Source of the DNA: a bacterium
GTDB taxonomy: Bacteria > UBP6 > UBA1177 > JAKLFG01
Direction: 5' to 3'
Length of the DNA: 33,497 nt
Assembly (NCBI GenBank): GCA_029573155.1
Contig: JAKQHE010000278.1
Location: forward strand, 1 to 33,497
Shown: piece after piece, positions 2,346 to 32,678 of the stretch
How positions within the stretch are numbered: the first letter of the stretch is position 1
How the letters are laid out: each line of letters begins with the position of its first letter
Position numbers and translations under genes: made by a program
Notes under the pieces: generated by a model
What the model was told of the DNA's origin: nothing
Database searches by the model: none
What the model saw: only the letters and a program-made list of their open reading frames with translations

Positions 2346-2435
2346 ACGATATTATTCGCCTTTCATTCCAAATAGTTACCTAAATATTTCGGAGCACCTG
2401 AATCCTTTAAGCCGCTCGCCGTATCTTATGGGTGT
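2346..2435 (+). repeat. 90-bp direct repeat, left copy (3' gene remnant plus promoter)
   Basis: Bases 2346-2435 match 7925-8014 with three mismatches and no gaps; the last 71 bases (2365-2435 = 7944-8014) are identical. In the right copy the first 30 bases are the last ten codons of the lipoprotein gene ending at 7954. Here the same frame would read TILFAFHSK and stop, but no gene leads into it, so this is an orphan 3' gene tail. The remainder is intergenic DNA and a full copy of the GAATCC/TATCTTATGGG promoter. The two copies bracket a 5.6-kb low-GC block. Confidence 0.95.
2400..2432 (+). promoter_or_regulatory. Promoter motif copy A (GAATCC-N16-TATCTTATGGG)
   Basis: GAATCCTTTA starts at 2400 and TATCTTATGGG covers 2422-2432, with exactly 16 bases between GAATCC and TATC. 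It faces the 785-aa secreted protein gene at 2597, giving a leader of about 160 bases, the longest among the eight motif copies. It lies inside the left direct repeat and is identical to copy B. Confidence 0.8.
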
Positions 2436-2596
2436 CAGTGGGAGAGTTTCTGAAAAGGACGGAAAGCACTTGATGGGTGGTAGCATATCCACATACAAGA
2501 AAGTTGCCTTTTTTTCATTCCATCAGGGGCCTTCGCCTCCGTATCACAAAATTTATCAAACGGACTTTTTACCTTAGAAAATATGGGGAATAAGTT

Positions 2597-4954
2597 ATGA
2601 AAAAGATTTTTGTTGTGGTGATTGTATCTTTTACTTTTAATCTTTTCGCGATAACTGACGGCATTAGATATTGTCAACATATCGATTTAGGGGGATACTG
2701 CACAGACATTACATCAACTCGATTTGATCTAAGCCAGTATACTTGGACTGGTGGAACACCTCAAAATGATAATGTGTCATCAATTCTGGTTATGAGTGGG
2801 TGGGAAGCATGGGTATGCAAAGATGCTAATCACTACGGGGATTGCATGTTTTTGTCCGCAGGCACCTATAACATGACAAATTATGCTGGATGGAATGACC
2901 AAATTAGCTCCATCACCGTTCAACCGACAACATTTTACGAAGCATGGAGCTACTATGGGAAACGAGAATTCGGTGAATCTGGTACCGCGCCGTATGGGTT
3001 TGCCTATGCTTATGCGTGCTTAAATTTTGTTGGGTGCAAAAGGCTATTTTTGAAGTACCCGGACTCGATCTCAAGTCTATCGAATTACATTGTGAAGAAA
3101 AATCAAATAAGATCCATAGAACTTGATGGAAATGTTAAGGCGACATTACACAGGGATGGCTACTCGTCGAAAATTTTGTTCTCATCTCACAAAAACTTTT
3201 CTATAAGCAATTCGATCACACAACAGTATGGTTACCTTAATCTCACAGCTTTTGACCAGACTGTCGATGGCATAATGATATCTATGGCGCCGTCTATTGG
3301 TTTTTTTCAGTCCGAATTAAGGCAAGATTTTTCGGGTTATCCCTACATTCTCGATTTTTATAATGCATATAACTTTGATAACACGACAATTGATGATGCA
3401 AGACATGAGGCGTATGAGGTGAATTTCAGTTTGGGAGTCGCCGATCCGAACTACGGAAGCCAAACTTCAATGGCTCAAAAGGTGTCTTACTATCAGAATG
3501 ATCAATACACCCAACGATACGGGGACAATTATGATTTGCTTGCAATTGCAGCACATGGCACTCTTGATATAATGGACACAGACCCGACAGTCAGAAATCA
3601 TTGGGTGGCTATTAATTCAGATCTATATCCGGAGGATTCGAACCCTTATTGGTACTACAAAAAATACGGCGGCATATTAAAGGGTTGGTATGAAGAACTT
3701 CCTAATTACGTTGAAGGAGCCTACTCGGATTGGTCGAAATATATAGGTACGAAAAGTACTGAATGGGTTTTGGATAGTAGCTGCGGATCGTTTGGCAACC
3801 ACATTGATCAACATCACGGCAACATTTCATGGTCGGAAATACTTGACATCTATGATGGCCCTTCAACAGAAAACGGTATTCTTGATAACCTGCATGGATA
3901 TGGTGGTACCCGAGGAGATTGGTTTTTCTTTGTGGATGATGGAGAATCTCTTGGCGAAGAGTTTTATTTAAATCTGTCTCAATATTCCGTTTCAAGTGCA
4001 TGGGTCGCCTCCTTTGCTCATCTGTGGACATATGTAAGCGGTGTTCTTATGAACCGCGATGCAAGATATCTTACGAAAGAAACATGTGACTGCTCAAGTA
4101 TATTTTGTGTTGCGGCCTACATGAACAACGACCATTTCCACTTATACGGGACAACCCAACCAGACAAAGGATCGCGAGACAATTATCCCTACACTTGTAT
4201 GAGGAGAAATTCTTCCTGGTACTTGTATGATGGTACTCCATATGATCCCTATTTGAAAATGTCATCTTCTGTGCCGTCGGAAGTGGACGGTGGAGTAGAC
4301 GAAACCATTTATATGTCAAAGTCATTCACGGAAAATGATTTTCTAAACATGTTCTATATTAAAAACTATGATTCCTCACAGAAGATCAATCTCGACGAAA
4401 ACGAATATTATTATTTCAACAAAAACAACGGTCATTTTGGATGGGGGAAAAAAGAGGTTGAATCTGTCATTCCGGAAGACGAGACCGGAATTATTTATGA
4501 ATTTGCTTTGAAAGAATCGGCTGGCCTTTTGGAGAAGTGGTATGACTATAAAATGCAACTGGAAAGCGCATCCTTCGAAACCTTGACAGGCATCAAAGAT
4601 GGCGAGCCCTTAAATGAGGTTGCTATTGGCCTGCATCTCATTTATAAGCCCGCGATAAACGGGAAGTTTGTTGATAACAAAAAAATAAAAATGTATTTTA
4701 CCCGTTCTGGTCTGTCAAAGGTGTTTTCGAATGCTCCAAAAGAAATCTTTGTTTCAGAGGAGAATGTTAGAACGAAAGACCATGAAACTATTCTTTCGGA
4801 GATTGCAAGCCAAGAAAAAATGGATAATATGGAAAACTATGAGTACACAGGTATTTACTACATGGATGAGACTGGTACGATCATCCCTGCGGTAAAGTAC
4901 GTGTCAGACAGGAACATCCTTGCGGAGAAGGTGTTGATCATTACCTCGGACTAA
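2597..4954 (+). CDS. Secreted protein with beta/gamma-crystallin motifs and a caspase-like His-Cys (DUF6345-like) region
   Basis: A 785-aa exported protein with a signal peptide (residues 1-18, ending FNLFA). Residues 19-109 form two Greek-key motifs of a beta/gamma-crystallin domain: Tyr/Cys and GG in each motif and the calcium-site signatures NDNVSS (57-62) and NDQISS (100-105). Residues 135-200 may be a second, degenerate pair (NQIRSIEL). Residues 310-480 resemble clan CD peptidases and DUF6345: a hydrophobic strand ending in AAHG (His320), a second strand ending in LDSSCG (Cys396), then LHGYGG and a SSAW segment. The rest is unassigned. Peptidase activity is inference from this layout. 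The gene is clearly more AT-rich than the flanking backbone, which suggests transfer. It is first in a three-gene run, 5 bases before the next gene. GGGGAATAAG precedes the ATG. Confidence 0.75.
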   Translation: MKKIFVVVIVSFTFNLFAITDGIRYCQHIDLGGYCTDITSTRFDLSQYTWTGGTPQNDNVSSILVMSGWEAWVCKDANHYGDCMFLSAGTYNMTNYAGWNDQISSITVQPTTFYEAWSYYGKREFGESGTAPYGFAYAYACLNFVGCKRLFLKYPDSISSLSNYIVKKNQIRSIELDGNVKATLHRDGYSSKILFSSHKNFSISNSITQQYGYLNLTAFDQTVDGIMISMAPSIGFFQSELRQDFSGYPYILDFYNAYNFDNTTIDDARHEAYEVNFSLGVADPNYGSQTSMAQKVSYYQNDQYTQRYGDNYDLLAIAAHGTLDIMDTDPTVRNHWVAINSDLYPEDSNPYWYYKKYGGILKGWYEELPNYVEGAYSDWSKYIGTKSTEWVLDSSCGSFGNHIDQHHGNISWSEILDIYDGPSTENGILDNLHGYGGTRGDWFFFVDDGESLGEEFYLNLSQYSVSSAWVASFAHLWTYVSGVLMNRDARYLTKETCDCSSIFCVAAYMNNDHFHLYGTTQPDKGSRDNYPYTCMRRNSSWYLYDGTPYDPYLKMSSSVPSEVDGGVDETIYMSKSFTENDFLNMFYIKNYDSSQKINLDENEYYYFNKNNGHFGWGKKEVESVIPEDETGIIYEFALKESAGLLEKWYDYKMQLESASFETLTGIKDGEPLNEVAIGLHLIYKPAINGKFVDNKKIKMYFTRSGLSKVFSNAPKEIFVSEENVRTKDHETILSEIASQEKMDNMENYEYTGIYYMDETGTIIPAVKYVSDRNILAEKVLIITSD

Positions 4955-4959
4955 CCAAC

Positions 4960-6447
4960 ATGTTGCGCCGGTTATTTCTGTTTTTGGTTTGGGGGGGCGT
5001 CTTGAGCGCCTCCCCCTGTCATAGTGATGGTTCGTGCGACTTCGGGTTGGTCTGTGATTCCGGCAATTGTGACGACGCTGTTTCGGTACCGGAGGGAGCC
5101 ATTGGAGAACCCTGTCGTATCGATGGCACCTGTGATGTTTTTCTCAGTTGTGTAAATGCCGTCTGTTGTGAATCGGGCGTAACACAGATATCGACGGTCT
5201 ATCGAGATATGACCGCGCGGCTACTCCGGGACGGCGAGGACAACATGGTGCTTGGATTCACCTCGTATGGCGAACCGTGGAATGTCCCCAACAACGGCGA
5301 TTACGATATTTATCTTGTAAAAATTGACGGCGACGGACGCTACGCATGGAAAGAGTCTTTTGGAACGGAATATTCTGACTTTCTTAAAAGGTTGGCGATA
5401 GGCAAGGATAACTCTATCTGGCTCACGGGATGGACCCAAGGAGAGTTTTTCGGACATGCGAAATCAGACAGTGTGATCCATCCTTACGAAGACATGTTCG
5501 TTGCCCGCTTAGATCAGAAAGGCGCGATCTTGTTTGTCCGTCAGTTTACGCGCCCACTTGCTCTCTCTTTTGCGAAGATGTTTGATCCCGTAGAGATCGT
5601 TATCACTGATGACGGCGCGCTTCTTATTTATAATTCCGGGGCAATGGTTTTCTCGAGTGATAACCATGATGGTATTGGCATAGCAAGCCTGTCTTTAACG
5701 GGAGAGATCACAAAAAATGTCGTTTATGAAGAAACGACCCTCCGCGTACCGCTAAGCGCAAATTCGGCAACAAGTCTGACCAACGGCATGATAGCGGCGG
5801 CGGGCATTACCGATATTAACGATAACGGCGAAGACGCTTTTGTTCTCATCCTAGACAAGGACGCGGCAGTGGTCGACAAGCTGATCGTCAGCCAGTCGGG
5901 GTATATGATGGGGGAAGCCCTTGAATACGCCACGGCTATCATTTCCGATGAGAACGACGATCTATATGTTGCCCTATCCATGAGTTATTACGATGAATTT
6001 AATGGTCATTTTCCCCCATCGGGCGGCAGGGGCACAGGAGCAGACACAGACGCCTATGTGGTAAAATACGACAAAAAACTTAATATGTTGTGGAGCACAC
6101 AGGTAGCATCCAAGGGAAGTGAAGGCATTTCGCATCTTTTCATTCTCGATGACGGAAGCCTCGTTGCCGTTGGAGATACCAATGGTGATATGGCTGTTAC
6201 CGGAGAATATACCGGAGTGCCCTATGGCTTTTGGGTGGATATAGATCGTTCTACGGGTCAGGTGGAAAACATTGAAATGACACCGACACCCCAAACGACG
6301 ATCAATGCAGTGCTCATCCATGGCGGTTACCGGTACTTGGCTGGGACCACTTATGCTTCGTTCGAAGAACAATATGAGGACCGTAAAACCACCTGCGACA
6401 GAGCCGGTTGTTCCGATCTGTATCTGCGGAGGGAGCTCCATGAATAA
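4960..6447 (+). CDS. Secreted Cys-rich/beta-propeller protein
   Basis: A 495-aa exported protein. The N-terminus MLRRLFLFLVWGGVLSAS is a signal peptide. It is followed by two short Cys-rich repeats of the 'C..DG.CD..L.C....C' form (about residues 20-70), like the small disulfide modules found in surface proteins of Myxococcota-type genomes. The remainder (about 75-480) has the recurring 'D.....DG.....G.T.G.F' and 'D.FV...D..G' elements of SBBP-like beta-propellers, about six or seven blades. A pair of Cys near the C-terminus (TTCDRAGCSD) echoes the insert in its neighbour. No clear ribosome site precedes the ATG, and it starts 5 bases after the upstream stop, so translational coupling is likely. 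Function unknown; probably a surface or secreted binding protein. Confidence 0.75.
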   Translation: MLRRLFLFLVWGGVLSASPCHSDGSCDFGLVCDSGNCDDAVSVPEGAIGEPCRIDGTCDVFLSCVNAVCCESGVTQISTVYRDMTARLLRDGEDNMVLGFTSYGEPWNVPNNGDYDIYLVKIDGDGRYAWKESFGTEYSDFLKRLAIGKDNSIWLTGWTQGEFFGHAKSDSVIHPYEDMFVARLDQKGAILFVRQFTRPLALSFAKMFDPVEIVITDDGALLIYNSGAMVFSSDNHDGIGIASLSLTGEITKNVVYEETTLRVPLSANSATSLTNGMIAAAGITDINDNGEDAFVLILDKDAAVVDKLIVSQSGYMMGEALEYATAIISDENDDLYVALSMSYYDEFNGHFPPSGGRGTGADTDAYVVKYDKKLNMLWSTQVASKGSEGISHLFILDDGSLVAVGDTNGDMAVTGEYTGVPYGFWVDIDRSTGQVENIEMTPTPQTTINAVLIHGGYRYLAGTTYASFEEQYEDRKTTCDRAGCSDLYLRRELHE

Positions 6448-7954
6448 GATAGGTGCATATGTGAGTTTTCTTCTCCTTCTCGTGTGTTGTCTCAGTTGCA
6501 GCGATGGAAAACAGAGTGAAGGCGATACGGATGTCAGTCCATTTGATGGTGATTTTTCGGGAGATCAAGATGGTCCCGATAATGACTCGCTGATCGTGCC
6601 GGAAACACTCGATCATTATTCGCGTAGCAAAAGTCTTACAGCCGGAAGTCCGTACAATGAATTTGTGTTCGATGTGGCAATATCAACCACCAATGGTTCG
6701 CTTTTGCTCTCGGGATTTACAGAAGGGAGTTTTGCCGAGTATGCTATGAAGGACACCATGAAATTATCGCCCAAATGCGAGGGCAGGGAATGCCGCGACA
6801 TGTTCTTGGCCACTGTCTCATCCGATATAATAGAACCTATCGCTCAATTCGGGTGGAACGGAGAAACATATGCGGATGACGAAATCGCGAGCATGCTTGT
6901 TGACGGAAATATGGCGATACTGGGTGGTGCGATCTCGGCCATTGCCAACTGCACCGGTCTTTTTTGTCAGGAAGCGGTGCTGGTTGGATATGATTACAAA
7001 GACAAAGTTGTCAACACCATGCTGTATGAGATGGGAAAAGGATTGATCCCGGATCCAATCGTGAATGTACTTCGACCACCGACCCGCATAACAAGTATGA
7101 CGCACGGAGTTTTTTCGGAGATTTACATCGCGGGGTGGGTTATCGGCGATATATATGGTGATCCCGGACAACTCACCGAGGAATCTTACGGCCAAGATGT
7201 GTTCGTGCGTAAAATCGATACCGCAACATGGGGAAATCGTTGGGTGGTGCAACTTAGGACGCCTCAAAACGAATCGGCAGACGCTATATTCTTGCTGTCG
7301 GATGGCGGAATAGTTGTCGCGGGAACAACGAGAGGAGACATGTGTGCCGGCTCACTGAAAGAAACCGTTGACCGCGATATTTTCTTTGCCCGGTATGATG
7401 GCGACGGGAATCTGCTTTCTTGTCGGCAGGTACTGACCGCCGAAGATGAAATCGTCGGTGCGGCGACTGAATTGAATGGGCGGATCATCCTTATCGGAAC
7501 GCGACGCGCATTCGATGCTCTCTCAAAAGGCTCGGTGGTGATAACAGAGTTTGATCCTGCCGATGATACGACGACAAGCCGCCTCCTACCGGAAACAACG
7601 GGGATCAAAATCTCCGCGGCAACGCAAATGAACCAAAAAGTTTTTCTTGCCGCCGGCGCGGTCGAGCATTGTGTCGTCGATGATAAGGAAAAGGATTTCC
7701 CCTGCCTCGTGATGATACAGATGGACGACACTTATACGGAACTTTCACGGCGCTATTTCGGCCGAAAACAAAATGAAAGGATCGCCAAAGTTATCGTTCA
7801 TGATGATCGCTCCATTTCAATAGTCGGTGATGCTTTGACCATTATACCCGGCGGAAAATCGAACCGCGATATCTGGTATGAAAAGTGGGTGGTGAAAGAT
7901 CAGCTGACCGCTCGGCTACCCGCAACGATATTATCCCCCTTTTATTCCAAATAG
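6440..7954 (+). CDS. Beta-propeller lipoprotein with Asp-rich linker
   Basis: A 504-aa predicted lipoprotein. ATG 6440 was chosen because GGAGGGAG lies 5 bases upstream and the N-terminus is then a proper lipoprotein signal ending at Cys20 (VCCLSC). The residues after Cys20 are acidic (DTD, DGD, DQDGPDNDS), a linker type repeated in other lipoproteins of this window. The body carries degenerate SBBP blades (for example VVAGTTRGD with DIFFARYDGDGNLLSC). It overlaps the upstream gene by 8 bases, so the two are coupled. Its last ten codons (TILSPFYSK plus stop) lie inside the right direct repeat, and a near-copy of this tail survives upstream at 2346-2375. Role unknown; surface-exposed propeller inferred. 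Confidence 0.8.
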   Translation: MNKIGAYVSFLLLLVCCLSCSDGKQSEGDTDVSPFDGDFSGDQDGPDNDSLIVPETLDHYSRSKSLTAGSPYNEFVFDVAISTTNGSLLLSGFTEGSFAEYAMKDTMKLSPKCEGRECRDMFLATVSSDIIEPIAQFGWNGETYADDEIASMLVDGNMAILGGAISAIANCTGLFCQEAVLVGYDYKDKVVNTMLYEMGKGLIPDPIVNVLRPPTRITSMTHGVFSEIYIAGWVIGDIYGDPGQLTEESYGQDVFVRKIDTATWGNRWVVQLRTPQNESADAIFLLSDGGIVVAGTTRGDMCAGSLKETVDRDIFFARYDGDGNLLSCRQVLTAEDEIVGAATELNGRIILIGTRRAFDALSKGSVVITEFDPADDTTTSRLLPETTGIKISAATQMNQKVFLAAGAVEHCVVDDKEKDFPCLVMIQMDDTYTELSRRYFGRKQNERIAKVIVHDDRSISIVGDALTIIPGGKSNRDIWYEKWVVKDQLTARLPATILSPFYSK

Positions 7955-8014
7955 TTACCTAAATATTTCGGAGCACCTGAATCCTTTAAGCCGCTCGCCG
8001 TATCTTATGGGTGT
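7925..8014 (+). repeat. 90-bp direct repeat, right copy
   Basis: This is the partner of 2346-2435 (offset exactly 5579 bases, three mismatches, no gaps, 71 bases identical). It overlaps the 3' end of the upstream lipoprotein gene and carries promoter motif copy B, which drives the signal peptidase gene. Recombination between the two copies would precisely remove genes 2597-7954 and leave one intact promoter. Confidence 0.95.
7979..8011 (+). promoter_or_regulatory. Promoter motif copy B (GAATCC-N16-TATCTTATGGG)
   Basis: GAATCC is at 7979-7984 and TATCTTATGGG at 8001-8011, with the invariant 16-base gap. The start codon at 8044 lies about 33 bases downstream, so the leader would be short. It is identical to copy A because both lie in the direct repeat. 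Confidence 0.85.
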
Positions 8015-8043
8015 TCGTAGGAAAAGGTGAAGAGAGGTGCTTG

Positions 8044-8652
8044 GTGACCGGTAACAATCCCCCATGCAACGAGTCGGGACGGGTGATGCATCTGGATCGG
8101 TTGTTCGACCTGTTCTTCAGCGGCGACGACCCGAAGCCGATAAGCATCAAGGGCTTCGCGCACAGCATGATACCCGCCATACTCCCCGGTGAACTTATCC
8201 GCATCCTGCCGGCCGGCGACCGGACGCGCCTGCGTTCCGGCGATGTGGTGGTCTTCCGGTACGACGACATCTTCGTCGCCCACCGGTTGGTGCTGACATG
8301 GCGCGGCCGCGCGCTGACCAAAGGGGACAACAACCCGCTCTGCGACCCGTGGATATCCCTCGCCGATATCGTCGGGGTGGTGGAAGGGAAAAGTTCGCGG
8401 TGGCGGCTCATACGGCATTTCATCGTACGCGAACGCCTGTTGCCGTGCCTGTGGGCGCTGGCGCAGGAGAAATGGTCCTTTCTTCGCAAAGCGGATGCGA
8501 CCGATAGCGTAGCCGTAGGGGGCGATGTCGACCCGGAGGGCTCCGATACCTCCAGACGACCCCGGGAGGCATCGTCCCGCCTTCTTTCCCCCGCCGGTCC
8601 TTCGACACGACCATACCCGCAGGATCATCTGAGAACGGGAGAGACCCCATGA
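8044..8652 (+). CDS. S26B-type signal peptidase-like protein
   Basis: A 202-aa protein with the core of the S24/S26 serine peptidase family. The nucleophile region is KGFAHSM (Ser41), then PGELIRILP, LRSGDVVVF, VAHRLV (His80) and TKGDNNPLCDPW. A His where bacterial enzymes use Lys is typical of the SipW/eukaryotic-like S26B group. GTG 8044 was chosen for AGAGAGG six bases upstream; ATG 8086 would also keep the whole domain. No strong transmembrane segment is evident, although residues after the core (LLPCLWALAQ) are hydrophobic. The last 50 residues are low-complexity. It is driven by promoter copy B, overlaps the HNH gene by 4 bases (ATGA), and may process an exported product of the same regulon; that substrate link is inference. 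Confidence 0.8.
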   Translation: MTGNNPPCNESGRVMHLDRLFDLFFSGDDPKPISIKGFAHSMIPAILPGELIRILPAGDRTRLRSGDVVVFRYDDIFVAHRLVLTWRGRALTKGDNNPLCDPWISLADIVGVVEGKSSRWRLIRHFIVRERLLPCLWALAQEKWSFLRKADATDSVAVGGDVDPEGSDTSRRPREASSRLLSPAGPSTRPYPQDHLRTGETP

Positions 8653-13117: not shown

Positions 13118-13206
13118 TGCGGCGCGGAGAGCGAGTTACGACGAATTTCAGCAGATACGGATCCATCGGGGCATCCCCTGACGGATCGTGCATTTCCCCC
13201 CGGAAT

Positions 13207-13283
13207 GGAGCCGTTCCATGGGGCGGACCCGAAACTTACGCTCGATACCTCCCAAAGGGATTTTCGGGTCCCGCCCCGGCTCC
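13207..13283. repeat. Compound inverted repeat (possible structured RNA or REP/MITE-like element)
   Basis: GGGGCGGACCCGAAA (13220-13234) pairs with TTTCGGGTCCCGCCCC (13262-13277) with one bulged base. The stem is extended outward by GGAGCC (13207-13212) with GGCTCC (13278-13283). Inside the loop TCCC/GGGA (13250-13260) forms a further small hairpin around AAA. Three nested helices in 77 bases point to a folded RNA or a palindromic repeat element. No transposase gene is near. Confidence 0.75.
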
Positions 13284-13308
13284 GCTATGTATGGGGACTT
13301 AGGTGGAT

Positions 13309-13535: not shown

Positions 13536-15311
13536 ATGGCGAAGAAAGTGAAAGCTGTGGAGACCGCACCCGAAGTAACATTGGAACCACGGCCACGCTT
13601 GTCCAAGCTCATCATCAAAAATTTCCGCTGCATCGGAGCCTCTCCAGTCACGCTTGATCTCGATGATATTGTTGTGCTGGTTGGTCCCAACAATGTCGGC
13701 AAAAGTTCCGTGTTGAAGGCCTATGAAGTAATCATGTCTGAAGGCTCGAACGCAGGACATCTCGCGATAGAGGACTTCCCTTTCGGAAAGGTTGATTCTG
13801 GGGCAGTCCCTGAAATCGAACTCCACACCGTGATATACGACAACAGTCCTGGAGCGGAGTGGATAGCAACGACTTCTTCAGGGGAGAAGTTGGTCAGGGA
13901 ACAGTGGCGTTGGCCAGCACCCGGTACACCGGTTCGCAGAGGTTTTAATGTGAAGGAGAACAGGTGGGCAACCGATGAGGACAGAGAGAAAGTACCATGG
14001 GGTGCTGCTGGTGTTGCGAACTCACGGCGTCCACAGCCGCATCGCGTGGACGCCTTCGCCTCTCCGGACGAGCAGGCAGGTGAAATCGTCAAGCTGCTCA
14101 TGATGGCAATCAAGGACCGCGTAAAGTCCCATCAAGAAAACTCCAAGGAAGACAAGGAATCCGACTTCGCTAAACTTCTCGGGGGCATTGCAGCTCTTCA
14201 GAAGAAGATCGTAGCAGAAAGCGAGGAGCATATTGCCGCCGTTCAGGCGGATCTGTCCGGCTACATTGGTCGCGTTTTCCCCGGCCATCGCGTTGTATTC
14301 GACGCCAAACCCGAAGATGACTTAGACAAAGCCATCAACCTCTTCAAAGCGAATCCTCAACTACTCATGGGACCCGAGGATGGCTTCTTGAGCTCGGTTG
14401 GCCGACAGGGTAGCGGGGCACGACGTACCCTACTCTGGACAGCCATACGCCTATTGGCCGAGACCGGAAAGAAGAAACCAGAGGGCGTACAACGCCCACA
14501 CGTACTCCTCCTTGACGAGCCAGAGATATGCCTGCACCCAAGCGCGGTTAGGGAAGCATGCGATCTGCTCTACGGCTTGCCGGGCATCACTGGTAACTGG
14601 CAGGTCATGGTCACGACACACTCCCCTTGCTTCGTAGACTTTGCCCGAGATCACACCTCTATTGTCCGTGTCGAAAGAAGAGAGGACGGCCAAATCACAG
14701 GAACTACCATCTTCCGCCCTGAAAGAGCAATGTTCGACGGAACGGACAAGGAGTGCCTGAAATTGCTGAATCTCTGTGATCCATACGTTGCGGAGTTTTT
14801 CTTCGGAGGGCGAACCATCATCGTTGAAGGAGATACGGAGTACACAGCATTCAAGCATGCGATTGCTGCAGCCCCGAAGAAATACGAGGGTGTCCATGTT
14901 GTCCGCGCACGCGGCAAGGCGACAATTGTCTCGCTCTGCAAAATACTGAACCAGTTCGGGGCACCCTATTCTGTTCTGCACGACAGTGATCGTCCAACGT
15001 ATGTGAAGAATGAGAAAGAGTCGGCAAATCCGGCCTGGGCGCTGAATGACTCGATCCGGATCGAGATGGCGAAGTGCCCAGGGCCAACGAGGATGGTCGC
15101 CTCCGTTCCGAACTTCGAGGGCGCATACCTTGGAGAGGAGGCCAAGACCGACAAACCGTACAATGTCTTAAGCTCGCTCAAGGCGGATTCAGCGATCTTG
15201 ATGACCGTGTCGGAATTGCTTGATGCCTTGCTGGACTTCGATAAACCACTACCTCATGGTGCTGTTTCATGGAAGAATCTTGACGAGTTAAAGGCATCCT
15301 TAAATGACTAA
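13536..15311 (+). CDS. OLD-family ATP-dependent endonuclease (ATPase plus TOPRIM)
   Basis: A 591-aa protein. The N-terminal ABC/SMC-type ATPase has Walker A GPNNVGKS (50-57), a signature-like GRQGSGARR, Walker B LLLDEP (324-329) and the His switch TTHSP. The C-terminal TOPRIM domain has VEGDTEY (Glu431, Asp433) and HDSDRP (Asp483, Asp485), so catalytic residues are intact. OLD proteins are single-protein (class 1) or paired with a UvrD-like helicase (class 2, GajA); no helicase is adjacent here. Many act against phage; that role is inference. Base composition is less GC-rich than the backbone. Only a weak ribosome site (AGGG) precedes the ATG. Upstream direct repeats suggest regulated expression. 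The downstream partner is a small WYL protein. Confidence 0.9.
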   Translation: MAKKVKAVETAPEVTLEPRPRLSKLIIKNFRCIGASPVTLDLDDIVVLVGPNNVGKSSVLKAYEVIMSEGSNAGHLAIEDFPFGKVDSGAVPEIELHTVIYDNSPGAEWIATTSSGEKLVREQWRWPAPGTPVRRGFNVKENRWATDEDREKVPWGAAGVANSRRPQPHRVDAFASPDEQAGEIVKLLMMAIKDRVKSHQENSKEDKESDFAKLLGGIAALQKKIVAESEEHIAAVQADLSGYIGRVFPGHRVVFDAKPEDDLDKAINLFKANPQLLMGPEDGFLSSVGRQGSGARRTLLWTAIRLLAETGKKKPEGVQRPHVLLLDEPEICLHPSAVREACDLLYGLPGITGNWQVMVTTHSPCFVDFARDHTSIVRVERREDGQITGTTIFRPERAMFDGTDKECLKLLNLCDPYVAEFFFGGRTIIVEGDTEYTAFKHAIAAAPKKYEGVHVVRARGKATIVSLCKILNQFGAPYSVLHDSDRPTYVKNEKESANPAWALNDSIRIEMAKCPGPTRMVASVPNFEGAYLGEEAKTDKPYNVLSSLKADSAILMTVSELLDALLDFDKPLPHGAVSWKNLDELKASLND

Positions 15312-15394
15312 TCGACATTCAACCAAAACCATGGAAGCCGTGCCTCATGGCTAATGTTAGATATCCACAAATAGAAACATAAGGAGAAGTTCTC

Positions 15395-15688
15395 ATGAAC
15401 CAAAGTGTGATTGAAGAAGCAATTCGAACCAAAGCAATCATTGAGTTCTACTACTCAAGTCATCACCGAGTAGTTGAACCACATGTCTTGGGTATTCACA
15501 CCGGAATCATCCAATTACTTGGATACCAAATTGATGGAAGCAGCAGTTCCGGCAAGCTCCCAGAATGGAGAAGATTTGATCTCAATAGAATGAGCAATAT
15601 CCAGATAACGGATAAAAAGTTTTCTGGTCAGAGACCGTCTGGTCATCACAGCTCATGGGATCGCACCATACTTGTCGTAGATGATTAA
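15395..15688 (+). CDS. Small WYL-domain protein
   Basis: A 97-aa protein that is essentially a bare WYL-type ligand-sensing domain. Residues 10-29 read IRTKAIIEFYYSSHHRVVEP (Arg25 and Glu28-Pro29), then LGYQIDG (42-48), WRRFDLNRM (58-66) and a basic tail FSGQRPSGHHSSWD. These are the conserved points of the WYL fold, which binds nucleic acid or nucleotide ligands and often controls defence loci. No helix-turn-helix is present, so it would need a partner or act as a ligand sensor. AAGGAG lies eight bases before the ATG. It follows the OLD gene by 83 bases and shares its lower GC content. Confidence 0.75.
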   Translation: MNQSVIEEAIRTKAIIEFYYSSHHRVVEPHVLGIHTGIIQLLGYQIDGSSSSGKLPEWRRFDLNRMSNIQITDKKFSGQRPSGHHSSWDRTILVVDD

Positions 15689-21543: not shown

Positions 21544-21852
21544 ATGGACATGCAGGATAAGGGGATCGCGATCACTATCGAGGACATGCCCAACGATGAT
21601 CTGCTCTTTGTCGCGAAGAACTGCGGGGTCGAGGTGGCGGCCGCGCTGATGTTGCGCCTGCAGGGGCTGAGCATCAGCATCCCCCGGAACGCCCTGCGGA
21701 AGGTCATCGCGCGCTATATCTGCGAAAACTACAACGGCAACAATATCAAGCAATTGGCTGTTGATTGCCGGGTCAGTATCCGTCAGGTGTACGCGATCCT
21801 GCAAAAGAATCGGCGCCTCTCCCGGAGCCGGAGGCCGCTCCCCGGGCGCTGA
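21544..21852 (+). CDS. Mor-like transcriptional activator
   Basis: A 102-aa protein matching the Mor family (Mu middle-operon regulator). The N-terminal half has DLLFVAKNCGVEVAAALMLRL leading to LQGLSISIP, the dimerisation helices and the strand element before the DNA-binding part. The C-terminal half (FNG-like YNGNNIKQLAVDCRVSIRQVYAILQK, about 62-90) is a helix-turn-helix. Mor proteins bind upstream of the -35 region and help RNA polymerase. No other phage gene is nearby, so this is probably a domesticated regulator. GGAGG lies five bases before the ATG, and promoter copy C lies directly upstream. Confidence 0.85.
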   Translation: MDMQDKGIAITIEDMPNDDLLFVAKNCGVEVAAALMLRLQGLSISIPRNALRKVIARYICENYNGNNIKQLAVDCRVSIRQVYAILQKNRRLSRSRRPLPGR

Positions 21853-26593: not shown

Positions 26594-27160
26594 TTGGATA
26601 TTCAAGATAAAGACCGCAACGATGAAAAGGCGCTCCTCGAACGGGCGCGCCGCAGCGATGTCGCCGCCTTCGAGACGCTCGTCCGTTCGCACGAAGACAA
26701 ATTGTTCTCGTTCGCCCTCTCCATCACCGGCGGAAAGGACGAGGCGGCGTACGAGATACTACAGGAGACGCTCATTCGCGCCTATCGCGGCATCGCCTCC
26801 TTCCGGGGCGACTGCGCGTTCCCCAATTGGCTGTGGCGGATACTGAAGAACAACTTCGAACGCTACAAGGACCGCGAACATGCGTGGGAGGGGAAGAGGA
26901 AGGGGCCCGGCGACACCCTTGAGGTCTCCACCGAGGAACAGGCCATCCACGAGGAGCGGCTGACCAACATCCGGCAACTCATCTCCCTGCTGAGCATCGA
27001 CGATCAGGAAACGCTTAACCTCATAGAATTCCAGAAGTTATCGCTCGAAGAGGCGGCCGCGCTGACCGGCATATCGATCGAGGCCTTCAAGTCGCGACTC
27101 CACCGGGCCCGGGAGCGGCTCGCGCGGTCGGTGAAAAAAAATAAGAATCTTTTTCTCTAG
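26594..27160 (+). CDS. ECF-type RNA polymerase sigma factor
   Basis: A 188-aa sigma factor from the TTG at 26594; an alternative in-frame TTG at 26513 would add 27 unconserved residues. Neither has a strong ribosome site, so the start is uncertain. Region 2 spans about 26-92 (FETLVRSHEDKLFSFAL, EILQETLIRAYRGIASFRG, FPNWLWRILKN) and region 4 about 130-182 (LLSIDDQETLNLIEFQKLSLEEAAALTGISIEAFKSRLHRAR). There is no region 3, as expected for the ECF group. The downstream gene encodes a zinc-type anti-sigma factor. Promoter copy F overlaps the 3' end of this gene and copy G lies back-to-back upstream. I infer that this factor reads the GAATCC-N16-TATCTTATGG motif. No copy of the motif points into the sigma gene itself. 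Confidence 0.9.
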   Translation: MDIQDKDRNDEKALLERARRSDVAAFETLVRSHEDKLFSFALSITGGKDEAAYEILQETLIRAYRGIASFRGDCAFPNWLWRILKNNFERYKDREHAWEGKRKGPGDTLEVSTEEQAIHEERLTNIRQLISLLSIDDQETLNLIEFQKLSLEEAAALTGISIEAFKSRLHRARERLARSVKKNKNLFL

Positions 27161-27178
27161 ACGATGTATCTTATGGGG
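27145..27178 (+). promoter_or_regulatory. Promoter motif copy F, driving the anti-sigma operon
   Basis: GAATCT (27145-27150), 16 bases, TATCTTATGGGG (27167-27178). The -35 half lies inside the last codons of the sigma gene and the -10 half lies between its stop and the anti-sigma start at 27196. If the sigma factor uses this site, it activates its own inhibitor. Confidence 0.88.
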
Positions 27179-27195
27179 TGACCAAGGAGAAGGCC

Positions 27196-27921
27196 ATGGA
27201 CGAACGGTGCCGACGGATTGACGAGTTACTGACCGACGCGATGACGCGGGAACTTTCTCCCGAAGAGCGCGCGATCCTCGATGACCATTGCGCCGCCTGC
27301 CCCTCCTGCGCCGGACAGTACCGCGCCCTCACCGCGGTGCGCGAGACCCTGCGGCGGCACCGCCCCGAGGATGACGCCCTTTCCGAGGATATGCGCGCCG
27401 CGCTCCACCGGCGGCTGGTCGAAGAGTCGGCCCGGCCGGAACGGGCCGTCGGCGCTCTGCCGTTCGGTCCCCGCTGGAAACTTGCCGGCGCGATGTTCGC
27501 CCTTATCATGCTGACGCTCTGCCTGTTCTCCTTCCTCGCGACGATCCCCGACGGGGCCGACGAAGGGACCGTCGTTTCACGCTCGGTCGTCAACGCCGGC
27601 GAGCCGCTCACCATCCGGCTGACCTATACCGCCGACCGGTCGCTCGCCGATGTCCGGGTAACGGTCCAACTGGACGACGGCGTATTTTTCCATACCGACG
27701 ACGAAACGCTCCGGCGCCTGAAGGAATATGTCTGGAAAGGCGACCTGAAGGAAGGGAGGAACGAGATACCCTTCGTGGTGGAGGTGGCCCGGACCGGCAC
27801 CCACCGCATCCGTACCGCCGCCGCGTACGACGGGATGCTGCACCGGCACGAGGTCGAACTGCAGGCCGGGCCGGGGACCGTCGCCGTCATCTACCGTTCC
27901 TTCCCGGAAAGACCGTTATGA
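27196..27921 (+). CDS. Membrane anti-sigma factor with zinc-binding (ZAS-like) domain
   Basis: A 241-aa protein. ATG 27196 is preferred because AAGGAG lies six bases upstream; the GTG at 27178 falls within the promoter. Residues 31-38 give HCAACPSC, the His-x3-Cys-x2-Cys motif of zinc-containing anti-sigma domains. One transmembrane segment follows (96-117, LAGAMFALIMLTLCLFSFLATI). Residues 120-241 would be outside the membrane and look like a beta-sandwich sensor (EPLTIRLTYTADRSLADVRVTVQLDDGVFF). It should hold the ECF sigma at the membrane until an envelope signal releases it. It overlaps the next gene by 4 bases, so anti-sigma and envelope genes are coupled. Confidence 0.9.
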   Translation: MDERCRRIDELLTDAMTRELSPEERAILDDHCAACPSCAGQYRALTAVRETLRRHRPEDDALSEDMRAALHRRLVEESARPERAVGALPFGPRWKLAGAMFALIMLTLCLFSFLATIPDGADEGTVVSRSVVNAGEPLTIRLTYTADRSLADVRVTVQLDDGVFFHTDDETLRRLKEYVWKGDLKEGRNEIPFVVEVARTGTHRIRTAAAYDGMLHRHEVELQAGPGTVAVIYRSFPERPL

Positions 27922-28457
27922 GACGCCTCGGCGTCGCGGCGCTCCTGCTGGTCCCCCTGTTCTTCCTGTACGCGGGGAAGAAAGATACGCTCAAGAGCGA
28001 CATCACGGTCGAACCGGGCGTGTACAAAAAAGGGTGGGAACGGGACTTTTTCCGCGACCTTCCGCCGCATGACCCGCCGGAAGAGAGCACCGACGCCGTG
28101 CCGGTATCTCCCGATGCCGATGCGATGAACCACCGGCGCGCCGTAACGGCCCCCCGCAGGATGCCGACACCGACCGTCACCCCGGAACCGGTCGTCGAAC
28201 CGGCACCCGGCCCCGCCACGACGAACCCCGAAGAAAAGGGTCTCGACGATACTCCGCCCCCTCCGCATGAGGAACGGCGGGCGCCGCGCCGACCGCCGGA
28301 ACCGGTCATCCTGCCCGACCTGCCCCCGGAGGAAAAGACACCTCCCGCAACCGGGACGCCCGCCGCCGATCCGGAAAAGAAACGGAAAGAGCGGCTCCGG
28401 GAACTGGAGAATAAACGGAAAAAAGGGAATTTCCGTGATCCGAAGATCACTTATTAG
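27918..28457 (+). CDS. Proline-rich single-pass membrane or exported protein
   Basis: A 179-aa protein with an N-terminal hydrophobic segment (RLGVAALLLVPLFFLYAG) that is either an uncleaved anchor or a signal. The rest is rich in Pro, Glu and Arg (PTPTVTPEPVVEPAPGP, PPPPHEERRAPRRPPEP) and ends in a basic helix (KKRKERLRELENKRKK). This is the make-up of a periplasm-spanning linker, as in TonB-like or wall-spanning proteins, but no TonB C-terminal domain is present. It is coupled to the anti-sigma gene (ATGA) and overlaps the barrel-like gene by 23 bases. It may carry a signal between the outer membrane and the anti-sigma factor; this is inference from position only. Confidence 0.72.
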   Translation: MRRLGVAALLLVPLFFLYAGKKDTLKSDITVEPGVYKKGWERDFFRDLPPHDPPEESTDAVPVSPDADAMNHRRAVTAPRRMPTPTVTPEPVVEPAPGPATTNPEEKGLDDTPPPPHEERRAPRRPPEPVILPDLPPEEKTPPATGTPAADPEKKRKERLRELENKRKKGNFRDPKITY

Positions 28458-29436
28458 TCTGCTTCTCCTCTGCTCGGTCGCGCGCGGGGTCGAGACCTCG
28501 TGGGAAGGGCAGGTGGCCGTCGGCGCGAAGTACAACAGCAATGTCGAGTATCTCTACCTCATCGACCGTCTTTCGGGCGATGATCTGCCGCGCAAAGAGG
28601 CGTTCTTCGCGCTCCTGAACGGCGATGTATCCCTTGTCATCGGCGAGGAGTACACCGGCAAGATCGGGTACTCGCTCGTCTCGGAATCGGGACTCGACCG
28701 GCCCGAACTCTCGCGGTTCGACCAGTATATCGCCGGGAGTTTCTCCCATCTTTTCGATGACGCGCTCCTGCTCGACTGTTCGCTGGTGCTCCATCACGCC
28801 GCCGAACGGTGGCCGGTACCGCGACAACTTTCCATCGACCTGTTCGGCTGGGTCACCGTGCTGTACGACCTTAACGAGCATTTCTCCCCGTATGGCTCCG
28901 CGCGGTTCGGGTACTATCACGACATAGACCCGTTCGGCGACCGGCGGCTCGACTATTTCCGGGGTCCGGCGGGGGGTGTCGAAGGCGGGTGGTACATCTA
29001 CCCGGCGGCCGACACCAGTTACCTCAAAACGGGGACCGGGCTGGACCTGAACTGGCTGCGCGACGAAGAATACGATCGCTTTACCGACCGGACGGGCGAT
29101 GTGTTGGGGGTCAGCAACAAGCACCTGCGCATCACGGCGCTGGTGGAGGGGGCCTTCGTCGACGAACGCGTCACCGCAGCGGTCGCGCTCCGGTATGTCT
29201 ATCAGTACTGGCTCGGCGTCGACATGTTCCGATACCTTGACTGGGAAAAACGGCGCATCGAACACACCATCTACCTGCAACCAGAACTCGAGTACCGGTT
29301 CCTCGAACATTACGCGGTCCGGGTGACCGGCAGCGTCATGCGAAAACTATCCAACATCGGCGAGCATAGAGATGATTACACCGATTATTCGTTCCTTCAG
29401 TTCACCGGGGCGGCCTCTTTCTCTTACACTTTTTAG
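28435..29436 (+). CDS. Outer-membrane beta-barrel-like protein
   Basis: A 333-aa protein from GTG 28435, chosen because AAGGGAA lies upstream and the N-terminus is then a signal peptide (IRRSLISLLLLCSVARG). The mature part is a series of amphipathic strands rich in Tyr, Asp and Gly (VAVGAKYNSNVEYLYL, YTGKIGYSLVSESG, YGSARFGYYHD, LQPELEYRFLEHYAVRVTGSV) and ends in the aromatic FSYTF, as expected of outer-membrane barrels recognised by the BAM machinery. The family cannot be named. It overlaps both neighbours, so it is one transcriptional and translational unit with the anti-sigma gene. It could be the envelope component whose state is sensed, or merely a regulon member. Confidence 0.75.
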   Translation: MIRRSLISLLLLCSVARGVETSWEGQVAVGAKYNSNVEYLYLIDRLSGDDLPRKEAFFALLNGDVSLVIGEEYTGKIGYSLVSESGLDRPELSRFDQYIAGSFSHLFDDALLLDCSLVLHHAAERWPVPRQLSIDLFGWVTVLYDLNEHFSPYGSARFGYYHDIDPFGDRRLDYFRGPAGGVEGGWYIYPAADTSYLKTGTGLDLNWLRDEEYDRFTDRTGDVLGVSNKHLRITALVEGAFVDERVTAAVALRYVYQYWLGVDMFRYLDWEKRRIEHTIYLQPELEYRFLEHYAVRVTGSVMRKLSNIGEHRDDYTDYSFLQFTGAASFSYTF

Positions 29437-30782: not shown

Positions 30783-32678
30783 GTGAAACGGTCGGTCGTT
30801 CCGCTCATGACGGCGCTTTTCTGCGCCCCGCTCGCGGCCGCCCTGTTCGGCGGCGGACCGTACGAGGTGTTCGATCAGGGGGGGACCGATCATTTCCTGT
30901 TCGGCAACACCTTCCTCGCGGACCAGCGGACCATCGACGGCCTGTCGGGAGACCGGCAGGGCGACACCTGTGTCGAAAAAAGCGCTTCTGCTCTGACCAT
31001 AGATATGTTTTTTCCGGACGCCATCGTTGACAAGGCCTATCTCGTCTGGACCGGCGCGGTCGATCCGGCGAAACTCGAAGAACCGACCGACCATACGGTC
31101 CATCTTTCGTTCGTCCGGGAGGACGGATACGGCTATGAGGCCGACATCGCCGCGGGCGCCGCGCCGCGCCATCTCGGCGACACGGAGGATCCCTTCACCT
31201 TCGAGAGCGTCCGCTTCACGACCGATGTCCGCGTCGGTTGTTCCGAGACCTCGCCGGGAACGGTGACCGCCGCCGAACTCGCCTATTTCACCTACCGGGC
31301 CGATGCGACCGACTTTTTCGAACGGATACTGCGCGACAATGCGCTGACCGAGGCGCCGATGATGCCGGGTCAGGCGGTCGCGGGCGAATATGCCGTGAGC
31401 GGACTCGACTGCACCGACGACGAGATATATCGCTGTTCGACGCTGATGGTGTCGAACTGGGCGATGCTTATCGTGTACCGCTCTGAAGAAATTGTCCCTC
31501 CTAAAAATATCTACCTCTATCCCGGGTTCGCTTTCCTGAAAGAAGAGAGCGTCGATACCCGCCTCGAAGGGCTCGTTCTTCCGGCCGATACGCCGGTGCG
31601 GATGACGATGCTCTCCGCGGAGGGCGATCCGGCGCTCATGACGGCGCGCGAAGGGTCCGAGATGGTGGCGGTGCGGGGGAACGACGGGGCCGTCGTCCCG
31701 ATAACGGGCGACTGCGACCCGGAGGACGAGGCGGTCAACGAGGTATGGGATTCGCGCCGATCCTTCTTTGCGCTGTCCGAGAGCGGCGCGTACTGTACCG
31801 CATACGATGACGAGCCCTACACCTTCGGCCTCGACATCGACCGCTGGGAGCTCGACCCGACGATCGATACGCGGTTGGCGGGGATATTTTCCGAAGATGG
31901 CGACACCATCGATCTCCGGTTCCGTTTCGCCGCCGACGAGGTGCTGACCAACCTTGTCGTGCTCGCGGTGGAACGGCCCGTGTCCGATTTCGATGTCCCC
32001 GGCGCGGATGAACTCCGCGACTGTCCCTGCGTGCCGGAAGGGACACGCGACATCTTTTGCGAAGGAGAGCCGCTTTATATCCTGCTGACCGTCGAGAACT
32101 GGGGAGAGACCTTCGCCGAGTCGGTGTATGTCCGGGCGGAGTACGACCGGGCGGTCTTTGACTATCTTCCCGGCTCCACCGAGATCGCGACGCGATTCGA
32201 CCGGGCGGGTAACGGCACGAACTGGCAGGTGTTCCTCGACGGCCCGGCGGGGGGATTCCCGCTGGCCGAACCGAACCTCATCGCCAATACGCTCCCCAGT
32301 TCCCTTTCGGCGCCGGACGAGGCGCTTTCCTACCTGATCCGCTTTCAACTGGTGCCGAAGACCGGTCTCCCGAAGAACACGGTCGGGAAAGTAAGCGCCG
32401 TCATCAGCGACACGAATGGGTCTTACCGGACCAATCATCACCTCCCGTTGAGATTGTATCCGGGGGCGTGTCTCCAGACCTGCACCGAAAAAGAACTGCG
32501 GGAACGGTGCGGCGGCATGACCGCCGACAACCCGCAGATATACGATCCACAGGAGAAGGAAGGAGACCCGCCGGACGCCGACGAGACCCCGGACCTTGTC
32601 CCCGACGACATCATCGATCCCCGGGCGACCCATCCCATGAGCGCGCAGGAACCGGGGTGTGCGCTGATCCTGTTCTGA
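30783..32678 (+). CDS. Large secreted surface protein (DUF3344- and DUF11-like regions)
   Basis: A 631-aa exported protein from GTG 30783, with GGAGGG nine bases upstream and a signal peptide (MTALFCAPLAAALFG). The first half has the pattern of adhesin-like domains of the DUF3344 sort: KAYLVWTGAVDP, a Tyr-rich DATDFFERI segment, NWAMLIVYRS and NIYLYPGFAFL. About residues 415-545 resemble a DUF11-like Ig domain (PLYILLTVENWGETFAESVYVRAEYD, LSYLIRFQLVPKTG). Cys are scattered in pairs (RDCPC, CLQTCTE), fitting disulfides. The C-terminal 50 residues are acidic and disordered. A single gene follows promoter copy E. Its role as an adhesin or S-layer-like protein is inferred. Confidence 0.75.
   Translation: MKRSVVPLMTALFCAPLAAALFGGGPYEVFDQGGTDHFLFGNTFLADQRTIDGLSGDRQGDTCVEKSASALTIDMFFPDAIVDKAYLVWTGAVDPAKLEEPTDHTVHLSFVREDGYGYEADIAAGAAPRHLGDTEDPFTFESVRFTTDVRVGCSETSPGTVTAAELAYFTYRADATDFFERILRDNALTEAPMMPGQAVAGEYAVSGLDCTDDEIYRCSTLMVSNWAMLIVYRSEEIVPPKNIYLYPGFAFLKEESVDTRLEGLVLPADTPVRMTMLSAEGDPALMTAREGSEMVAVRGNDGAVVPITGDCDPEDEAVNEVWDSRRSFFALSESGAYCTAYDDEPYTFGLDIDRWELDPTIDTRLAGIFSEDGDTIDLRFRFAADEVLTNLVVLAVERPVSDFDVPGADELRDCPCVPEGTRDIFCEGEPLYILLTVENWGETFAESVYVRAEYDRAVFDYLPGSTEIATRFDRAGNGTNWQVFLDGPAGGFPLAEPNLIANTLPSSLSAPDEALSYLIRFQLVPKTGLPKNTVGKVSAVISDTNGSYRTNHHLPLRLYPGACLQTCTEKELRERCGGMTADNPQIYDPQEKEGDPPDADETPDLVPDDIIDPRATHPMSAQEPGCALILF

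Follow-up and report, generated by a model that had tools for sequence, protein, structure and literature searches.

A low-GC predicted surface-protein operon between two copies of an ECF-type promoter segment, and surface-gene exchange behind such promoters in related bacteria

How the same promoter-bearing segment comes to stand at both ends of a single operon, and where that operon came from, are the questions raised by a locus in a fragmented bacterial genome assembly (G000, the host; 2.69 Mb in 288 contigs). The locus lies in a 33,497-nucleotide stretch of DNA, referred to here as the window, which we analyzed and compared with related genomes. The nearest genome compared, G001, is a sister species in the same genus, and G002 and G004 belong to another genus. 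The features on which the analysis turns are as follows.

1549–2325, + strand: SDR oxidoreductase gene, a conserved anchor gene (PF00106, E=4.6e-48)
2322–2443, + strand: left copy of the repeat, SDR 3' flank plus ECF-type promoter, read as resident; position of the promoter relative to the SDR stop kept in G001
2400–2431, + strand: ECF-type promoter by family motif, GAATCCTTT-N12-GTATCTTATGG (also given as GAATCCTTT-N12-GTATCT)
2444–26508, no strand: stretch of ~24 kb without a match at this place in G001
2597–4954, + strand: g1, secreted protein with a beta/gamma-crystallin-like N-terminus (weak Crystall match, E=0.0034, below cut-off)
4960–6447, + strand: g2, surface protein with a Cys-rich N-terminus and a beta-propeller, SBBP-like (partial NF047494 match, E=1.4e-11, below cut-off)
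6440–7954, + strand: g3, lipoprotein-type signal and beta-propeller (partial NF047494 match, E=2.3e-5, below cut-off)
7904–8022, + strand: right copy of the repeat, SDR 3' flank plus ECF promoter, before sip; probable duplicate
7979–8010, + strand: second copy of the ECF-type promoter, by motif
8044–8652, + strand: sip, signal peptidase I-like, SipW/archaeal type (TIGR02228, E=1.9e-10, below cut-off)
26594–27160, + strand: ECF sigma factor (Sigma70_r2 and r4_2)
27145–27176, + strand: ECF promoter before the anti-sigma gene, conserved in G004
27196–27921, + strand: zf-HC2 anti-sigma factor (PF13490, E=9.3e-5)

The repeat pair, its promoters and the operon between them

An earlier note on this DNA had reported that positions 2346–2435 match 7925–8014 at 87 of 90 positions, and recomputation returned exactly that figure. 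Without gaps the match extends to 2443 and 8022, giving 94% identity over 98 bp. Mismatches fall at 2356, 2358 and 2364 and again at 2436, 2437 and 2440 (left-copy numbering), which confines them to the two ends and leaves an identical core of 71 bp (2365–2435). The segment is present at exactly two places in the host assembly and was not found in the 20 relatives searched. Among exact repeats of at least 16 bp the window holds just one other, a 17-bp pair, and a chance repeat was rejected.

Each copy had also been claimed to contain a promoter, which as a motif is real: the pattern GAATCYTTT-N10-16-TATCTTATGG has five matches in the window and none in shuffled sequence. A family promoter profile was built from 24 sites, mostly with a fixed 27-nt span, and family genes behind such promoters encode lipoproteins, a Mor-family regulator, a response regulator and an anti-sigma factor. 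As in an ECF regulon, a sigma/anti-sigma pair is accompanied by a motif shared between target genes and the pair's own locus. Each genome has several ECF paralogs, and it is the sigma factor encoded at 26594–27160 that probably recognises these promoters. Among the sites compared, no further pair of promoters with long identity within one genome was found, and the promoter pattern was not found on those contigs of the family that hold sip homologs. A gene for a Mor-family transcription activator (a phage-type late activator) lies at 21544–21852, directly behind an ECF promoter, and an apparent Mor-family homolog is similarly placed in G002:C43.

The products of the three genes between the copies are presumably located at the surface. 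In an alignment of g1 with homologs, comprising six sequences of which another family of the order supplies five, H320-G321 and C396 are invariant, and this His-Gly and Cys pattern suggests a caspase-fold cysteine peptidase. A PDB profile search with the same alignment returned nothing significant, the best match being a weak one to a short carbohydrate-binding protein (3hzb, E=0.068). No match to g1 was found in plasmids or phages, and an origin of this gene from either was set aside. Both g2 and g3 resemble LipL53-type beta-propeller lipoproteins at scores under the model cut-off. The claim that the three genes are lower in GC than the backbone was borne out, with 45% for the block (g1 40%, g2 50%, g3 49%) against 62–68% in MEMO-SDR, sip-HNH, the sigma locus and the right-hand genes; further stretches of the window, at 9.2–15.7 kb and 23.2–26.4 kb, are also low, at 47–53%. 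The composition of the g1–g3 block is foreign, and we infer that the block was acquired horizontally.

Direct repeats flanking foreign-looking DNA are also what an integrase- or transposase-borne element would leave, as attL and attR or as a target duplication. We consider such an element very improbable here: profile searches of the window genes scanned revealed no integrase, recombinase or transposase, the repeat is 98–120 bp long, mosaic, present nowhere else and itself contains a promoter motif, and g1, as mentioned above, gave no plasmid or phage match.

Origin of the two copies

According to the earlier note, each copy holds the 3' tail of a gene. This holds for the right copy, which contains the tail of g3, but not for the left copy, which starts 20 nt past the stop codon of the SDR gene and corresponds to the SDR 3' flank. 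The SDR gene is 93% identical in G001 and 85% identical in the other genus. Nucleotide identity between G001 and the host is 92% up to position 2356, within the left copy, where homology stops, and downstream of the G001 SDR stop there is an ECF-like promoter (GTACCTTTT-N12-GTATCT, 27-nt span) spaced almost as in the host. Because G001 homology enters the left copy and the two promoters are equally placed, we regard the left copy as resident. A remnant tail of a g3-like gene was considered for the left copy and rejected, the homology with G001 favouring the SDR flank.

The right copy, followed upstream to 7904, carries CTGACCGCTC, which is sequence of the G001 SDR flank; 19 of 20,000 random windows score equally. 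Comparing the upstream parts of the left and right copies directly gives a weaker result, equalled by 520 of 20,000 random windows, and the outer extension of the repeat (2322–2345 and 7904–7924) rests on about ten matching bases. On these alignments the right copy is probably a duplicate that starts at the SDR stop codon. Since it carries SDR-flank sequence, the last ~17 residues of g3 probably represent in-frame read-through of the copied flank.

We therefore favour, at a probability of roughly 0.55, the insertion of a horizontally acquired g1–g3 operon behind a resident ECF promoter, with duplication of the flank and promoter. The low-GC operon would have entered just behind the promoter 3' of the SDR gene, by a single crossover or a duplicative insertion within the flank-promoter segment. 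About 120 bp, consisting of the flank from the SDR stop codon and the promoter, would have been duplicated and the 3' end of g3 joined to the copied flank; through this duplication both the newcomer operon and sip would have a promoter. Single crossover or duplicative insertion is plausibly the likeliest mechanism, with other histories possible; mismatches at the ends around an identical middle are what an exchange in the centre of the repeat would leave. The locus as a whole would be the sigma/anti-sigma locus of an ECF regulon whose surface genes often change from one species to another, the promoters and anchor genes being retained.

The chief caveat on the arrangement is the phasing of short reads across the 71-bp core. 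It is perhaps shorter than, or close to, the k-mers of the assembler, the assembly is in 288 pieces, and exchanging exits at the core would yield exactly the alternative structures that a phasing error requires, namely a chromosomal SDR-flank-promoter-sip and a separate circular or tandem g3-flank-promoter-g1, or else two merged strains. Such an error is unlikely, in that mismatches on both sides of the core fall within a 150-bp read, making phasing feasible, and the junction of g3 with the flank lies away from the shared k-mer and is likely to be real DNA.

The locus and its promoters in related genomes

None of the relatives searched has the block, and the outcome that the earlier note named as refuting its proposal, with block and both repeats present in all related genomes, did not occur. 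We did not find g1 in other genomes of the family, its homologs being found only in another family of the order, and g3 is confined to the host, with no homologs in 25 genomes of the order. In G001 the SDR gene is followed by a single promoter, the block is absent, and the DNA 3' of the promoter differs from that of the host as well. Only ~0.7 kb separates the SDR and sigma genes there, and from there to a beta-lactamase-like gene the rest of the locus keeps the gene order of the host, on two contigs. Positions ~2356–26508 of the window are unmatched in G001 except for a small hairpin-like element. As this island measures ~24 kb and not 5.6 kb, the repeats do not bracket the whole of it. Moreover, the pre-insertion order SDR-promoter-sip was not found in any relative examined, and the insertion of g1–g3 is therefore inseparable from that of sip and the DNA downstream. 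In G002 and G004 the SDR and beta-lactamase-like genes are separated by 1–3 kb that holds other surface-type genes, and the sigma locus is on other contigs. The interval between the SDR and beta-lactamase-like genes has the look of an insertion hotspot.

The hairpin-forming element (86 bp; 13195–13295) is 80–84% alike in G001 and at two places in G002. In G001 it stands in the interval from the SDR promoter to the sigma gene, and one G002 copy lies downstream of an ECF promoter; the element is possibly a marker of an ancestral 5' leader. An Rfam search of the window, the element included, gave no match. Elsewhere in the island, at 13536–15688, a gene for an OLD-family ATPase/TOPRIM nuclease (PADLOC Old, E=7.9e-85) is followed by one for a small WYL-domain protein, and these may be phage-defence genes. 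Between the SDR promoter and the sigma gene of G001 there is an apparently broken small lipoprotein gene with a GCGCALAF-like tail (L038 3540–3880, minus strand).

The sigma and anti-sigma genes depart from several of their neighbours in identity and in tree topology. Between the host and G001 the beta-lactamase-like gene and a predicted outer-membrane gene (28453–29436) are, like the SDR gene, 93% identical, in contrast to 55% for the sigma factor, 48% for the anti-sigma factor and 50% for 30783–32678; nucleotide identity returns to 90% at ~27982. In the tree of the pair (26594–27921) the host, G000, sides with G004, and G001 with G002. The pair rejects the species tree (AU p=5e-5), which trees of the SDR, beta-lactamase-like and outer-membrane genes support. 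Trees of the SBBP and o30783 genes gave no resolved topology. Because the sigma/anti-sigma alleles contradict the species tree at this same locus, the data suggest a common site of diversification for regulator and surface cargo.

Among the promoter sites compared between species, cargo or flank changes adjoin ECF promoters at four other places in the family, and at several sites homology between species ends near the promoter. G004:C7 and G002:C233 have a common upstream gene to about -60 and then continue into a subtilisin-like gene or a lipoprotein. G002:C187 and G004:C74 have 61 bp in common at 98%, centred on the promoter, and G002:C187 has ~1.8 kb extra between the promoter and the upstream genes that the two share. 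At G001:C30 a 7.4-kb insertion consists of promoter, lipoprotein and large protein, and G000, G002 and G004 are contiguous there, giving an empty site; the promoter-leader-signal peptide segment of this insertion (235 bp, 94%) recurs elsewhere in G000 attached to a body of 25% identity. These alignments support the exchange of surface genes behind a retained promoter at several loci of the family, in agreement with the proposal that surface operons are swapped while regulon control is kept, since surface genes change behind conserved ECF promoters between species.

The related proposal, that the promoter segment is the recombination site, fared less evenly: cargo does change near promoters, but the insertion at G001:C30, the one case checked for them, has no flanking direct repeats. 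Flanking repeats were accordingly discarded as a general hallmark of cargo insertions, and on this one case a dedicated promoter-recombination system is unsupported. That ECF promoter-leader segments act as recombination modules trading surface operons between loci and species, with the sigma/anti-sigma pair traded as an allele, is a tentative reading that we think doubtful.

A collapsed tandem array had been proposed as another origin of the 5.6-kb block, and a collapse of this kind is indeed apparent in the family, for a lipoprotein array behind an ECF promoter at another locus. G001:C1 carries tandem lipoprotein genes in the order A-B-A' (L201 6068–8700), reduced in G000:C173 (L190 1126–1330) to an in-frame fusion of the beginning of gene A with the signal peptide of gene B, which brings gene B immediately behind the ECF promoter. 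For the window, a tandem duplication of the unit SDR flank-promoter-operon, with the second operon later replaced or deleted down to sip, predicts the same final anatomy. Against it, no remnant of a second g1–g3 lies 3' of 8022, the two stretches have no further repeat in common, and homology between the copies ends at most ~12 bp past the promoter; we judge it clearly less probable than insertion of an acquired operon behind the resident promoter, if the foremost of the alternatives. Taken together, the observation in the earlier note holds, and its interpretation holds in part.

Comparison with known systems

Campbell-type integration leaves the inserted DNA between direct repeats formed by duplication of a homologous segment, and the original order would return if the DNA between them were deleted. 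The present locus is similar in that its end repeats derive from one homologous segment (94% over 98 bp, the right copy with SDR flank). It differs in that the copies are mosaic, SDR-promoter-sip was not found in the relatives, and no circle is seen; the Campbell-type integration of a circular cassette proposed in the earlier note is no more than a possibility here. Polymorphic insertion hotspots between core genes, such as capsule or O-antigen type loci, likewise have variable surface genes set between core flanks, which here are 93% identical, and the island also carries the OLD-family nuclease gene; unlike those loci, the variable region here includes a sigma/anti-sigma pair and its promoters.

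At the sap surface-layer locus of Campylobacter fetus, inversion within one genome takes place at conserved 5' regions. Surface proteins are exchanged behind a kept promoter or leader segment in both cases, whereas here the differences are between species, there is one direct-repeat pair, no inversion is seen, and the promoter is of ECF type. The vpma locus of Mycoplasma agalactiae holds a family of surface lipoproteins varied through DNA rearrangement by Xer1 site-specific recombination (PMC5634654). A family of surface lipoproteins altered by rearrangement is common to both; the difference is Xer1 there and no recombinase among the window genes scanned here. Where sap- and vpma-type systems have several cassettes or recombination repeats per genome, the host has two repeat copies only.

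The locus offers a concrete footprint of surface-gene exchange without loss of regulation, in which the promoter stays with the anchor gene and the cargo changes. Should promoter-leader segments prove to be recombination modules, the family would possess a regulon-wide surface-exchange system, and the window would hold an operon still bracketed by two module copies and possibly able to leave as a circle.
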